DNA of 64,000 nucleotides from Leptolyngbya sp. CCY15150 (GTDB lineage Bacteria; Cyanobacteriota; Cyanobacteriia; RECH01): positions 1 through 64,000 of the forward strand of contig NZ_JACSWB010000156.1 of the NCBI RefSeq assembly GCF_016888135.1, written 5' to 3'. This document shows positions 6,539 through 54,558 of this stretch, piece after piece (position 1 is the first letter of the stretch; every line of letters starts with the position of its first letter). The position numbers and the translations under genes were made by a program. Below the pieces are notes generated by a model. It ran no database searches. It saw only the letters and a program-made list of their open reading frames with translations, and was not told the DNA's origin.

Positions 6539-6875
6539 CGAAGGACGCTTAACGACATCACCGCTCTAGTGTTAATTCTTAACAAAGCGATCGCCCTTTC
6601 GTACATTAGATGGCAAGCATTTTAGATGGCAAGCATTTTAGATGGCAAGCATTCTTAATGGTGGCTTGACCTAGACAGCGGCTGATCCCTGAGCCGCCGT
6701 GCAAACTATCCAGATCTCCATGGGCTAGGGCCGACCCCGACCCATAGGTGAGAGCTAGGGTCGTGAGGTTGAGTCGCGTAGCCTCCATCAACTCTCTCAA
6801 AAAATATGGCTGCATCTTGGGAAGATCACAGCCACATCTGTAGAGACAGAACAATTAAAAAAATTGTCAAGGAAT
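6539..6875. other. Intergenic spacer with a 16-bp tandem repeat
   Basis: About 340 bases between two leftward genes. It holds the three-copy repeat at 6609-6656. No supported gene; reading frames here lack a ribosome-binding site and protein-like composition. Confidence 0.6.
6609..6656. repeat. 16-bp tandem repeat, three copies
   Basis: GATGGCAAGCATTTTA occurs at 6609-6624 and 6625-6640 exactly, and at 6641-6656 with two changes near its end. It is non-coding and has no spacers, so it is not a CRISPR. Confidence 0.9.
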
Positions 6876-13091: not shown

Positions 13092-13777
13092 TTTAGGCTG
13101 GCAGCAGGAATTCCCAGTCCTCGAAGTAGTGTGCTGTTAGGAAAAGCCGTAACGCACCGTCTTGTAAAACGTTGACGCGTTAACCTACCGCATCCTCCGA
13201 ATCAATAGGGTTGTCTGCTCGTTGAATCAAAGTCCCTCGCCCGACTTGGGAGAGGGATTTAGGGTGAGGGTTACAAAAGTGAGATGCGCCTGCCCTGTTT
13301 CTTGCCTGGATCGTGGCTGCTCTTAAGTGGGTATATTAAGGGAAGAGCGAGGCGCTCAGGATGCGCCATCAACCGTTTGACAAGGGTTCTGTAATTTACC
13401 CTTGCCGTGGCTCAAGGTACATAAAACGTTACTAGATGGCTCCAGGCGGGTAGAACATGTTGGACTCAGATGCTGGATAGGCTCCAGCCATCTGGTTTGG
13501 CCATGGGCCATGCTTTGAAGCAGATCTAGGAGTCAATCGGTACGCCTGCAACCTTATGGCTGCAAGGTTTTGACTATCATGCCTATGGGAAAGTTATGTT
13601 CTGTCAGCCTCGGGCGATCGCTCCCAGTTCTTCCATAAATCACCCGGAGGAAGGGTGATCGGGGTCGCTTCTGTTGATAGGGTAATCGACAGGGCAAGAA
13701 GACCTAGTTGCTAGCGAAGTATCGTTCTAAAGCCCGCGATCGCCCCCTATTGTTGGTTTTAACGTCGTGAAACGTCC
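13092..13777. other. Long intergenic spacer
   Basis: About 690 bases without a supported gene. It contains a partial MITE-like repeat (13223-13291) and an AACCTT/AAGGTT stem with a short T run near 13552-13573 that could act as a terminator. The last part must hold the promoter of the hydrolase gene. Confidence 0.6.
13223..13291 (-). mobile_element. Partial copy of the MITE-like element at 54415
   Basis: This segment matches, with a few changes, the reverse complement of the left half of the element at 54415-54558. The shared block includes AAAGTCCCTCGCCCGACTTG, GGGAGAGGGATTTAGGGTGA, and an AAAAGTG..GATG..CC end matching the terminal inverted repeat. The other half and its terminal repeat are not recognisable here, so the copy is decayed or truncated. 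Confidence 0.75.
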
Positions 13778-21174: not shown

Positions 21175-21224
21175 GATCTGCTACCCAAACTCTTTATCAA
21201 ACGTGAGGTTAAAGGCTAGGCTCT

Positions 21225-21290
21225 GTTTAAAACCTGCTAAACCCCTTGATCTTTCGTACGAGAGAATCAGGGTTTGGATGAGTTTTAAAC
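21225..21290 (+). other. 66-nt nested inverted repeat (structured RNA or small element)
   Basis: GTTTAAAAC (21225-21233) is perfectly complementary to GTTTTAAAC (21282-21290). Inside it, AAACCC/GGGTTT and TGAT/ATCA stack with a 2-nt bulge, closing over TCGTACGA. The whole reads as one long hairpin with one internal loop. It lies 50 bases after the HD gene stop and 9 bases before the dispersed repeat. It could be a transcription terminator, a small RNA or a decayed mobile element. Confidence 0.6.
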
Positions 21291-21298
21291 CACTCCCT

Positions 21299-21419
21299 AG
21301 TACTCTGAGGCGTCAGTAACCCGCCTATGAGCTGAGACGGGAAACCTTGTGTCTCCCGGATCCTTTTCGTTTTTCTGTTTTCGTTTTTCTGTTTTCGTTC
21401 TTCTGTCTTCCGGCACTAG
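21299..21419 (+). repeat. Dispersed ~120-bp repeat, copy A
   Basis: This segment runs from AGTACTCTGAGGCGTCAGTA to CACTAG. It is closely similar along its length to the reverse complement of 48341-48462. Features shared by both copies are a CCC(G/A)CCT...AG(A/G)CGGG stem with a 7-8 nt loop (here 21320-21341), an AACCTTG block, and a pyrimidine tract of TTCGTT(C/T)TTCT-like units. It lies between convergent genes. Confidence 0.85.
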
Positions 21420-21424
21420 GGCGC

Positions 21425-21991
21425 TTAGAGACTAGGGGTGACGGGCTGAGCAAGCTCGTTTTGCACAAGGGTGCGGATGGCGCGAAACTGAGACTCGGTC
21501 AGCATGGCGATGGGATGCTGGCGGGTGACCACGGCCACGGCTTCCCATAGATCTAATCCTTGATAGAGACAGAGATAGCTGGCACAGACGGTGGGCGATC
21601 GCTCCACTCCGGCTAGGCAATGAACATAGACGGTCTGGCCGCGCTGAATGCGGGTGTGGATATGGTGAACAATATGACGCAGTTGGCGTGGATCGAGACC
21701 AAAGATGTAGCTGCTATCGGGAAGAATGAAGCGCGCATGGTCAAACTGCTGGGGGATGTCTGTGGGAATGAGCCCTTCTGAGGGGGCGCAGAGCGACACC
21801 ACCGACTGAATGCCCGCTTGATGAAGGCTGGAGTAATTTTGGGGAGTGGGGAGTGGGCCAACGGCAAGCTGTTGGGGCAGGATCCAATCTAGGGCAAGGG
21901 CAGCGATCGCTGTTCGGGGGTTAGGATGTTTGGACGGATGCGACGGTCGAAATACAGCCTGAATATGTTTCAACATAACGGTGGTTGCCAA
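21425..21991 (-). CDS. Dual-specificity (Tyr/Ser/Thr) protein phosphatase
   Basis: A 188-residue cysteine phosphatase. The P-loop HCLAGVERS (Cys125 to Arg131, the CX5R motif) and the upstream general-acid region (FILPDSS, Asp near 92) are present. The domain covers about residues 38-180. The start is ATG 21991 or the Met six codons on. Substrates are unknown. It converges with the HD-domain phosphohydrolase across a structured, repeat-bearing gap. Confidence 0.87.
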   Translation of the reverse strand: MATTVMLKHIQAVFRPSHPSKHPNPRTAIAALALDWILPQQLAVGPLPTPQNYSSLHQAGIQSVVSLCAPSEGLIPTDIPQQFDHARFILPDSSYIFGLDPRQLRHIVHHIHTRIQRGQTVYVHCLAGVERSPTVCASYLCLYQGLDLWEAVAVVTRQHPIAMLTESQFRAIRTLVQNELAQPVTPSL

Positions 21992-47481: not shown

Positions 47482-47681
47482 GGTAGGTTGAATAATCGTT
47501 GCTAGACAGTGGACAAGGGAGACTATCCTATAGCATAGCGAGAAGTGCTGCCGACCGAGGGAATCTGCATTCTGGCTGCTGCTTCCTGGCTAGATCCAGT
47601 GGTTTAGATCCAGATATCCGCAGGTTGTGGGATGCAGCACGGCCGGCTCGCGATCCTCAATCTTGTTATGGAGTATTCCAG

Positions 47682-48344
47682 ATGTCTGCGGATTCAGACC
47701 TGACCCTAACCCGGATTTTAATCGTCGAAGATGATCCCATGATGCAGCTTGGGCTAGAGCAATCGCTCTCCAGTCAGCCTACGTTGACGGTCGTAGGACG
47801 GGCAGAGGATGGCTACACGGCGATCGCCCTGGCCAAAACTCTCACCCCCGATATTGTGGTCATGGATATCGGCTTGCCCCGTCTGGACGGTATTGCGGCT
47901 ACCCAGCAGATTAAAACAGCCCTGCCGACAACGCGGGTGGTGATGCTCACCTCCCACACCTCTGAAACGGAGGTGATTAGTGCGTTGTCGAGTGGTGCGG
48001 ATGCCTATTGTGTGAAGGGTACCAGCGTTGAAAGTCTACTGGCAGCGATCGCTGCGGCAACGGAGGGGGCCAGCTATCTCGATCCCCAAGTGGCCCGCTT
48101 AGTCATGGATCATCTCAAGCCGCCGACCCAGTCCTCTAGCGGCATGATTGGCCAACTATCGCAGCGGGAAATGGAAGTGCTGACCCTGATGGTGGAAGGG
48201 CATAGCAACCCAGAGATTGCCGCCCAGCTCTTTCTCAGCCCCAATACGGTGAAAACCCACGTGCGCGGCATTATGAACAAGCTAGCCGTGGATGATCGGG
48301 TGCAGGCGGCGGTGGTGGCGCTGCGATCGGGGCTGGTGCCCTAG
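47682..48344 (+). CDS. NarL/LuxR-family response regulator
   Basis: A 220-residue regulator. The receiver domain has the acidic pair in LIVEDDPM, phospho-acceptor Asp62 in VVMDIGLPRLDG, and the Lys in AYCVKGTS. The LuxR-type helix-turn-helix (about 155-215) reads LSQREMEVLTLMVEGHSNPEIAAQLFLSPNTVKTH. I chose ATG 47682 with GGAG 8 bases upstream, although the frame is open far upstream. No kinase is adjacent, so it is an orphan. The stop codon lies at the very edge of repeat copy B. Confidence 0.92.
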   Translation: MSADSDLTLTRILIVEDDPMMQLGLEQSLSSQPTLTVVGRAEDGYTAIALAKTLTPDIVVMDIGLPRLDGIAATQQIKTALPTTRVVMLTSHTSETEVISALSSGADAYCVKGTSVESLLAAIAAATEGASYLDPQVARLVMDHLKPPTQSSSGMIGQLSQREMEVLTLMVEGHSNPEIAAQLFLSPNTVKTHVRGIMNKLAVDDRVQAAVVALRSGLVP

Positions 48345-48462
48345 TAACGCAAGATAGAAGAACGAAGATAGAAGAACGAAGACAGAAAACCGACAAGGAA
48401 TTTTAGGACGAACAAGGTTGCCCGCCTCAGCACATAGGTGGGTTACTGACGCCTCGGAGTAC
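48341..48462 (-). repeat. Dispersed ~120-bp repeat, copy B (inverted)
   Basis: Read on the minus strand this segment matches copy A (21299-21419) along its length, including the first 23 bases almost exactly (TACTCCGAGGCGTCAGTAAC), a CCCACCT...AGGCGGG stem, and the pyrimidine tract with three TTCGTTCTTCT/TTCTGTC units. It fills the gap between the response regulator (plus) and the CPBP protease (minus), so, like copy A, it separates convergent genes. Confidence 0.85.
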
Positions 48463-48473
48463 AAGTTGCTGCC

Positions 48474-50087
48474 CTAGTTGCTGCCTAAAACAAACAGGCT
48501 GAGCATGGTGGCTCCGTTCCACAAGCTGTGGAGCACCATGGGGGCGAGCATGTTGCGCGATCGCGTATAGACCACACCCAAAATACAGCCGAGCAGCGTC
48601 AGAGGGAGAACTTCCGAGAGGCTGAGGTGGGCGATCGCAAACACCAGACCGCTGACTAAAATGGCTCCCCATACGGGGAAGTAGCGCGTTAAGGATGAGA
48701 GCAAGAAGCCGCGAAACAGCAGTTCTTCAAACACGGGCGCGGCGATGGAGGCCGTGAAGAAAAAGATGCTGAGGGAGATGGGATCGCCTTCTTCGAGGAC
48801 AATTTGTAGCAGCGGATTACTGCCCCCTTGTCCCTGCCAAATTTGTTGATTGAGCAGCGACACTACAATCATCAGCGGTAGGGCCACAAAGTAGCCACCC
48901 ACGCCCCAGGCCAGCCAGCGATCGCCCAAGCTAACGCGAAACCAGTCTTTGGGCAGGGGAAAATAGCTGCGAATGGATAGATAGAGCACCAGCAACCCCA
49001 AGCTGGACATGGAGAGGTAGTAGGTGAGGGTGTAGGCGGCCTTGGCGCGGATGCCAAAGGCCAAAAAGCTGAAGCCCACTAATCTCAGCAGTAGGGGAAT
49101 GGCCAATTGCCCGACCAGGAAAAATCCTACGATCAGCACCTGCCAGATAATTTCCCAGTTCCAAGGCGTTTCCCAGGCCAGGCTACCGTTTTGGGCAAGA
49201 AGCGACTCGGATCCTTTCAAGACGCGCTGTACCACGATCACAATCAGCAGCACAATCCCAATCAAAGACCCCACCACCGGCATCAGACCAATCACCGCCA
49301 ATTTACCTAGGGTTGATTGAGCGATCGCTTGCTGGAGCGTTTGTAGCTCTGTTAAGGCCTCGGTACGCTGCTGGAGGGTGTAGAGCCGGGCAAGGGACTG
49401 GTAGCGAAACCAGCCGTCTAGATTTTTTTGTACATTTGCCTCAGCTTCGGGCAAAATTCGGGCGGGCTGGCTCCAAAGTCCTGATAAAATTTCGGCGGTG
49501 AGCCCGAGGGACGGATCCGTGGCCGCTGCGGTGGATTCAGGACTCGGCGGGGGCGATCGCTCCATCACCTGCTGCCAAAGCTCTAGGGCCGATTGGGTCT
49601 CATCTTGATTGACCTGGAGAAGGCCGATGCGAACATCTAGTTGGTTCAGCAAACTCTGCTGCTGCTGAATGGCTCGCTGCAGGGTCTGTGTTGATTCGGC
49701 GGCGGCTGGCCTGGAAGGCGTGGCGATCGCTGGTGGACTGGCACCGGCTGCATTGGTGTTGAGATCATCGAGTCGTTTCTGAAAGCCCTGTAGAGACGTT
49801 TCGGCAGACTCCCGCACCTCTTGATATTGCTTCAGCGCGGTCGCAAGGGGATTCGCGCCCACCAGCACATTTTGCACCGGCGGGACGTCGCCGGCTTCGT
49901 TGCTGCTCGATACTATGTCCAATTCAGCCGCATTCAGCAGCAGATCGGTTTGGTAGAGCTGCAATCGGCTGGTGATTTGCGGTTCATTCCAACTTGCCAA
50001 CAGTAGCGTGCTGACTTGCAGCACGACCAGTACCGTCAGAATGCCTAGAATTATTGGCCGCAACGGCATGGATCGTTGTTCCGTCAT
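48474..50087 (-). CDS. CPBP-family intramembrane protease with long N-terminal extension
   Basis: A protein of about 537 residues. The first 250 hold one hydrophobic helix (about 10-30) and a long helical, coiled-coil-like exported region. Six or more membrane helices follow. The C-terminal CPBP/Rce1-like domain has the three motifs: EELLFRGF (Glu-Glu-x3-Arg), FAIAHLSL (His) and HSLWN (His). Such enzymes cut prenylated or other membrane proteins, or act in bacteriocin immunity; the target here is unknown. I chose ATG 50087 with GGAGAGG just upstream; the frame is open to 50150. Confidence 0.87.
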   Translation of the reverse strand: MTEQRSMPLRPIILGILTVLVVLQVSTLLLASWNEPQITSRLQLYQTDLLLNAAELDIVSSSNEAGDVPPVQNVLVGANPLATALKQYQEVRESAETSLQGFQKRLDDLNTNAAGASPPAIATPSRPAAAESTQTLQRAIQQQQSLLNQLDVRIGLLQVNQDETQSALELWQQVMERSPPPSPESTAAATDPSLGLTAEILSGLWSQPARILPEAEANVQKNLDGWFRYQSLARLYTLQQRTEALTELQTLQQAIAQSTLGKLAVIGLMPVVGSLIGIVLLIVIVVQRVLKGSESLLAQNGSLAWETPWNWEIIWQVLIVGFFLVGQLAIPLLLRLVGFSFLAFGIRAKAAYTLTYYLSMSSLGLLVLYLSIRSYFPLPKDWFRVSLGDRWLAWGVGGYFVALPLMIVVSLLNQQIWQGQGGSNPLLQIVLEEGDPISLSIFFFTASIAAPVFEELLFRGFLLSSLTRYFPVWGAILVSGLVFAIAHLSLSEVLPLTLLGCILGVVYTRSRNMLAPMVLHSLWNGATMLSLFVLGSN

Positions 50088-50233
50088 TCCCTCTCCCCGT
50101 CTCACTAGATCCTGACCAATGGCGGTTCTCGGAGACCTACGCCCTGGCACTGATTGGCATTATCGCACTGTTCGCGGAAGGGTTGTTATGGCCCCAAGGG
50201 GGGATAGTGCAGTGGATAGCTCAGGATAGAGCC

Positions 50234-54414: not shown

Positions 54415-54558
54415 TGGGTGCATCCCACTTTTATAGCCCTCACCCTAAATCCCTCTCCCAAGTCGGGCGAGGGACTTTGAATTCGGCTCCCCTTCTCCCT
54501 TTTTTTGGGAGAAGGGGTTGGGGGATGAGGGTCAACTTGCAAAACTGGGATGCACCCA
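54415..54558. mobile_element. 144-bp MITE-like element with TIRs and 6-bp target duplication
   Basis: Perfect 13-bp terminal inverted repeats (TGGGTGCATCCCA at 54415-54427; TGGGATGCACCCA at 54546-54558) extend, after one mismatch, by TTTT/AAAA. Both ends are flanked directly by TTTAGA (54409-54414 and 54559-54564), a 6-bp target duplication. Inside are CCCTCTCCC...GGGCGAGGG and a perfect CCCCTTCTCCC/GGGAGAAGGGG hairpin (54489-54517). It encodes nothing. Such elements move by a transposase in trans; none is in the window. The right duplication contains the dam stop codon. Confidence 0.85.

Follow-up and report, generated by a model that had tools for sequence, protein, structure and literature searches.

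The enterobacterial ERIC/IRU elements are 127 bp long, with 7-bp inverted ends, TA at their termini and a target duplication (PMC2229807). BrickBuilt of Porphyromonas gingivalis is described, in the part of PMC4596501 drawn on here, as a MITE with small inverted ends and a variable internal tandem array of a 23-bp unit, present in 19 copies and always 49-591 nt from coding sequences. In Streptococcus pneumoniae the repeats SPRITE, RUP and BOX are over-represented between convergent genes, and SPRITE, which lies near gene 3' ends, may be a co-opted terminator, according to the sections of PMC3049150 used here. ISY100, of IS630/Tc1 type, inserts at TA and duplicates it (PMC2170065), and cyanobacteria have GTAG-tagged REPs and other MITEs as small intergenic mobile repeats (PMC3733652, PMC3542288). 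The element described here, from the cyanobacterium Leptolyngbya sp. CCY15150, is likewise a dispersed, non-coding repeat, of 110-140 bases, and its placement is orientation-specific, at the stop codon of one gene, in tandem as well as convergent gaps.

Two copies, A and B, lie in the window, the stretch of 64,000 nucleotides that was analysed (contig NZ_JACSWB010000156.1, positions 1 to 64,000; Table 1). An earlier note on this DNA had reported two repeats that align end to end and keep a stem, an AACCTTG block and a pyrimidine tract; all of these are present in both copies, the tract as 14-mers, and the ends given there fall 2-3 bases short of the actual boundaries. These run from CTAG to CTAG and were fixed by collecting copies from the same genome, whose flanks are unrelated to one another beyond the CTAG. 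L and R denote the left end and the right, 14-mer-bearing end.

Table 1. Copies A and B and the sequence features in and beside them; positions are those of the window.
Feature	Position	Strand	Remarks
Copy A	21297..21419	+	123 bp, CTAG to CTAG, R (14-mer) end at 21419; from alignment and family boundaries
Stem-loop of copy A	21320..21341	-	arms 21320-21326 and 21335-21341
Tandem array of copy A	21364..21405	+	three 14-bp units; from sequence and the 97+14n length pattern
R-end CTAG of copy A	21416..21419		5 bp from the TAA stop (21425-21427) of the - strand phosphatase gene 21425-21991
Copy B	48341..48465	-	125 bp, R (14-mer) end at 48341, L end at 48465
Stem-loop of copy B	48421..48442	+	arms 48421-48427 and 48436-48442
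Tandem array of copy B	48355..48396	-	three 14-bp units; from sequence
R-end CTAG of copy B	48341..48344		TAG 48342-48344 (CCC-TAG) is the stop of the + strand gene 47499-48344
CTAG of the Rce1-like gene	48474..48477		contains the TAG stop (48474-48476) of the - strand gene 48474-50150; 8 bp beyond copy B

The - strand of the copy A stem forms all seven pairs, one of them as G-U, and the + strand has one mismatch; the gene near the R end of this copy encodes a dual-specificity phosphatase. Copy A is missing from both congeners, as is the CTAG-bounded repeat at 21216-21300 that directly adjoins it, so that CTAG was used twice at this site. This second repeat, of the CTAGGCTCTGTTTAAAACC...GGTTTTAAACCACTCCCTAG family, has relatives adjoining other copies of the element (L010, L011, C207:333712 and C147:16715) and seems to be a separate MITE with the same CTAG target. 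Copy B is an old insertion, common to all three species, in which its orthologs carry different numbers of 14-mers (three in the window, one and two in the congeners); its L-end CTAG, at 48465, has changed to CTTG on the - strand, and the stem is partly deleted in the ortholog of one congener (G002). It starts at a stop codon, as the earlier note had it: the CCC-TAG at the R end terminates a response regulator (Response_reg and GerE). In the ortholog of the other congener (G001), the L-end CTAG also supplies the TAG that ends the convergent Rce1-like gene, so that among copy B orthologs two convergent stops are found on the two ends of one element. In the window, copy B and the convergent stop are now separated by a tandem duplication of 12 bp (AGTTGCTGCCCT; 48465-48477), which G002 has as well and G001 lacks. 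Comparison of these sequences indicates that the ancestral CTAG most likely served both convergent stops, and that both would have survived the insertion.

The further copies for which the earlier note had proposed a search are numerous, and convergent gaps are enriched in them. A sequence model of the family scored 90, 26 and 91 hits in the window genome (G000) and the two congeners, and a 131-base query recovered 40 scored full or partial copies in its own genome at E<=3.3e-20, well beyond chance. The 150 non-redundant copies collected from the three species, orthologs included, are about 92-181 bp long, and most lengths are close to 97+14n, the commonest being 111, 110 and 125 bp. This periodicity reflects the pyrimidine tract, a tandem array of CTTCGTTCTTCTGT-like 14-mers in variable number. 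In the orientation of copy A the consensus reads CTAGTACTCTGAGGCG(T/G)AAGTAACCCGCCTA..TGCT(G/A)AGGCGGGAAACCTTGTGTGTCCTGGAATTCCTTTTCGTT(CTTCTGTCTTCGTT)n CTTCTGTCTTGCGGTACTAG, with a left end of CTAGTACT, an imperfect 7-bp stem 23 bp inside, and a right end made of the 14-mers followed by GGTACTAG. The terminal inverted repeats, CTAGTAC...GTACTAG, span only about 7 bp, target bases CTAG included, within ends of the form CTAGTACTC / GTACTAG.

Filled and empty orthologous sites were identified by comparison with the congeners, which are about 90% identical. At seven empty sites (C207:178047, C147:204321 and C207:335499 among them) one intact CTAG stands in the place of the CTAG-element-CTAG of the occupied site, and the remaining ones read TTAG or have diverged. 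Genome G189 has unrelated sites occupied by several relatives that are identical, or almost, along 110 bp, and at one place two copies abut and share a CTAG. The large number of copies, the exact empty sites and the identical copies at unrelated sites support the mobility of the element, a possibility raised in the earlier note, and with its shortness and inverted ends they place it with the non-autonomous miniature transposable elements (MITEs). We file it among the MITEs and in none of the named families, ERIC and Nezha having been compared by description; no match was found in the plasmids searched, and no published description in the open-access literature, which is weak evidence with subscription papers outside its scope. 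The target is always CTAG, and since this contains TA, duplications of two bases (TA) and of four (CTAG) look alike; a single-strand mechanism without duplication, in which the CTAG belongs to one end of the element, is also formally possible.

Gene positions were taken from our own calls by a genome-trained hexamer model, and gaps and stops in the window genome were analysed in 1.64 Mb of stretches, chosen partly for carrying copies, with the null drawn from the same stretches. The earlier note had placed both copies between convergent genes and had suggested an element confined to 3'-3' gaps. The first statement is correct for A and B, and a preference for gene 3' ends is real, but the restriction is not a rule of the family: the 40 copies in the 1.64 Mb fall into 18 convergent, 17 tandem and 5 divergent gaps, against intergenic length shares of 12%, 53% and 35%, respectively. 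The convergent enrichment arises because the R end sits on the stop codon of one gene. Across the 150 copies the R-end tetramer includes a coding-frame stop in 75 (74 TAG, one TAA) and the L-end one in only 10 (p=1.9e-13); gene stops no more than 60 bp away are found for 100 R ends and 30 L ends. The asymmetry recurs genome by genome, with 35 of 64 copies at stops by the R end and 5 by the L end in G000, and 26 of 67 and 4 in G002. The placement at stops is also evident by a measure independent of annotation: 41 of the 69 copies with an R-end TAG are preceded by at least 100 in-frame open codons, compared with 4.2% of CTAG sites generally. Of 18 loci inspected in the distant genome G154, 7 have at least 100 open codons before the R-end CTAG. 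Elements in tandem gaps are 43 times in sense and 9 times in antisense orientation when the upstream stop is no more than 40 bp away; farther off the numbers are 4 and 10.

Chance was calibrated on the CTAG sites outside elements, noncoding or at stops, of which 289 of 2480 are stop codons and 2191 other noncoding sites. With insertion and orientation both random, 5.8% of copies would have a stop codon at a given end; the L end matches this level, and the R end is nearly nine-fold above it. TAG is the commonest stop codon in these stretches of G000 (645 of 1257 called genes in 1.64 Mb). Within them 22 copies occupy stop codons, against 289 C-TAG stops that lack the element, which means that about 7% of all C-TAG genes bear the same tail. 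One explanation would be passive filtering, in which insertion is random among CTAG sites and copies persist where they do least harm, at gene 3' ends, with neither benefit nor targeting. None of the copies falls inside a called gene and few lie in divergent, promoter-bearing gaps, as such a filter predicts, and the pneumococcal repeats are so explained in the portion of PMC3049150 consulted. We regard this account as improbable for the element. Filtering by position leaves the choice of end unexplained, since CTAG, and with it TAG, flanks the element either way; either orientation restores the stop, yet the R end is found there 75 times and the L end 10 times, so that the opposite orientation would have to be markedly harmful. 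The exact stop is moreover favoured despite the many other noncoding CTAG sites available.

The ages of the copies bear on whether the pattern is produced by insertion or by retention. When copies were classed as shared or species-specific from flanking matches in draft assemblies, 20 of the 28 shared copies had the R end at a stop and 4 of the 17 species-specific ones did (Fisher p=0.0025, tallied by hand). This suggests that sense copies at stops are retained preferentially, over and above any preference during insertion. The species-specific insertions at R-end stops are still above chance (p=0.015), so that an insertion preference, or very fast selection, must act too. Other estimates of age are less telling: by nearest-neighbour identity 10 of the youngest 30 copies and 65 of the other 120 are at stops, a weak trend (p=0.065), and distance to the consensus shows no correlation with stop placement. 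Weak or absent trends of this kind would favour insertion preference over retention.

These observations give some weight to targeted insertion, in which the mobility machinery itself favours transcribed gene ends and a fixed strand, and selection plays a small part. A single-stranded element might, for example, enter the non-template strand where it is exposed near termination, its orientation reporting which strand was open. The above-chance placement of recent insertions (4/17; 10 of the youngest 30) and the flat relation with consensus distance agree with this scheme, as does an L end that is at chance and not depleted, which implies that enrichment and not removal makes the pattern; a C>T bias confined to one strand, seen in all copies at any location, would fit a single-stranded stage. 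We consider targeting as the main cause possible though unlikely, given that a position at a stop is three times as frequent among shared as among species-specific copies, that the sense bias is gone more than 40 bp from the stop, that the loci of Y1 (single-strand) transposases are without nearby copies, and that the R end has no hairpin. A broader form of the same idea, a bacterial transposition system that recognises gene ends, inserting at TAG stops on a fixed strand relative to transcription and so spreading standard 3' untranslated tails over many genes in several cyanobacterial lineages, is doubtful.

The position of the element at gene 3' ends could alternatively mean that it is not mobile DNA but a conserved structured RNA or a bidirectional terminator, the latter having been suggested in the earlier note. 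RNAalifold on the strand read from the stop, where the purine-rich part comes first and the stem after, predicts one 7-bp stem at -11.3 kcal/mol, compared with -0.8 for the opposite strand, which is almost without a consensus fold. No U-run follows the stem, UUACUUACGCC standing in its place on the sense strand, and the element is no canonical terminator. Compensatory changes among the copies, sought as support for the stem, do not exceed those in shuffles, and both window copies, in the A orientation, fold no better than their own shuffles. An apparent conservation of the sense stem (97% versus 89% of cells in 29 copies) shrank to 92% versus 88% with 150 copies, among which those at stops keep the stem no better than others. 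The strand asymmetry of the stem is the C>T bias of unpaired positions, no stronger at stops, and we do not count it as evidence for a functional RNA fold: outside the stem, in the 150 copies, C>T occurs at 0.078 and G>A at 0.021 on the strand that reads 14-mers first. Copies at stops and copies elsewhere show this bias equally; it is therefore not due to local damage by transcription, and possibly derives from a single-stranded stage or from subfamily structure. Together with the precise empty sites, the copies away from 3' ends, the partly deleted stem of one copy B ortholog and the lack of any matching Rfam family, these results make a conserved RNA or terminator very improbable. That the element is transcribed as part of 3' ends, also proposed in the earlier note, is plausible from its position and orientation.

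The explanation that we find probable is a CTAG-inserting MITE whose sense copies at stops are preferentially retained, with a weaker insertion preference probably adding to the effect. The non-autonomous element inserts into the palindrome CTAG and leaves CTAG on both sides, such that a gene with a C-TAG end keeps its stop intact. Where a single CTAG is shared by the overlapping TAG stops of two convergent genes, both stops would survive. The fact that one CTAG can be the stop of both convergent genes, and is present on both sides after insertion, accounts for the seeming confinement of the two window copies to convergent gaps. The retained orientation would place the purine-rich strand (GUACCGCAAGACAGAAGAACGAAG... 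and then the stem) in the 3' untranslated region, where the tail may be neutral or mildly useful in 3'-end processing, stability or insulation, and a weaker preference for inserting at gene ends probably contributes.

The CTAG target hints, as a guess, at an IS630- or IS5-like DDE transposase; IS630 prefers CTAG. The four IS630-type loci of the genome, fragmentary and read by eye, have no ends matching the element, and no copy of it flanks the Y1 loci in G000, G002 or G189. Matches to the left end outside known copies revealed no larger element, only diverged or truncated copies and one unrelated repeat. The search for a partner transposase covered IS630 and Y1 genes and left-end matches, and the partner may be absent from these genomes.

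Diverged relatives with common ends, a stem region and a diverged 14-mer (CATCCTTCTGCCTT) were found in two other cyanobacterial families. In distant relatives (loci L114, L127, L130 and L133; genomes G189 and G154) the 14-mer arrays are broken by a different short repeat, TGTAGGGCT(A/G)TGCCCGTGC..AGCAGG. Polypyrimidine repeats of genomes G026 and G005 were considered as homologs and are treated as unrelated, with only the low-complexity tract matching and an architecture that differs. G026, another cyanobacterium, has many TTCGTTCTTCTCTCTTCGTTCTTC tracts (L034, L039, L044, L049, L053 and L057), often after their purine-rich GAAGAACGAAAAACG complements, which look like low-complexity hairpins between genes. 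The window itself contains a further dispersed repeat, with one inverted pair of copies (13227-13290 and 54417-54480; CAAAGTCCCTCGCCCGACTTGGGAGAGGGATTTAGGGTGAGGG) that agree at 94% over 64 bp, and a 16-bp tandem repeat of about 3.5 copies (TTAGATGGCAAGCATT) at 6606-6661.

An insertion at a stop leaves the stop codon intact and, from its position, is predicted to add a ready-made tail to the message. If the tail acts, the 3' ends of dozens of genes in each genome would have been remodelled by one mobile element, and this in more than one cyanobacterial family. With an inert tail, the fixed orientation must stem from the insertion reaction, which would constitute a new targeting rule.

Compared with the systems described at the outset, the element is distinct from the GTAG REPs, which are tagged palindromes of 20-40 bp, in that its consensus has GTAA and not GTAG before the stem; in the REP/REPIN system, furthermore, the RAYT gene is flanked by copies, whereas no copies of the element lie beside Y1 genes. 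Its inverted ends are far shorter than those of IS630/Tc1-type transposons and their MITEs, including the cyanobacterial Nezha as judged by description. SPRITE is terminator-like and the element is not, and the part of PMC3049150 consulted reports no stop-codon coincidence for SPRITE, RUP or BOX. BrickBuilt has a 23-bp unit in place of the 14-bp one and, as far as the part of its description used here goes, is not located on stop codons. The likeness to ERIC/IRU lies in the short inverted ends, the terminal TA and the placement at gene 3' ends, where ERIC in Yersinia has an orientation-dependent effect on the upstream message. We know of no sequence relation between the two. The element differs from ERIC in its phylum and length, in entering CTAG instead of any TA, in its internal 14-bp minisatellite, and in the exact coincidence of its end with the TAG stop.
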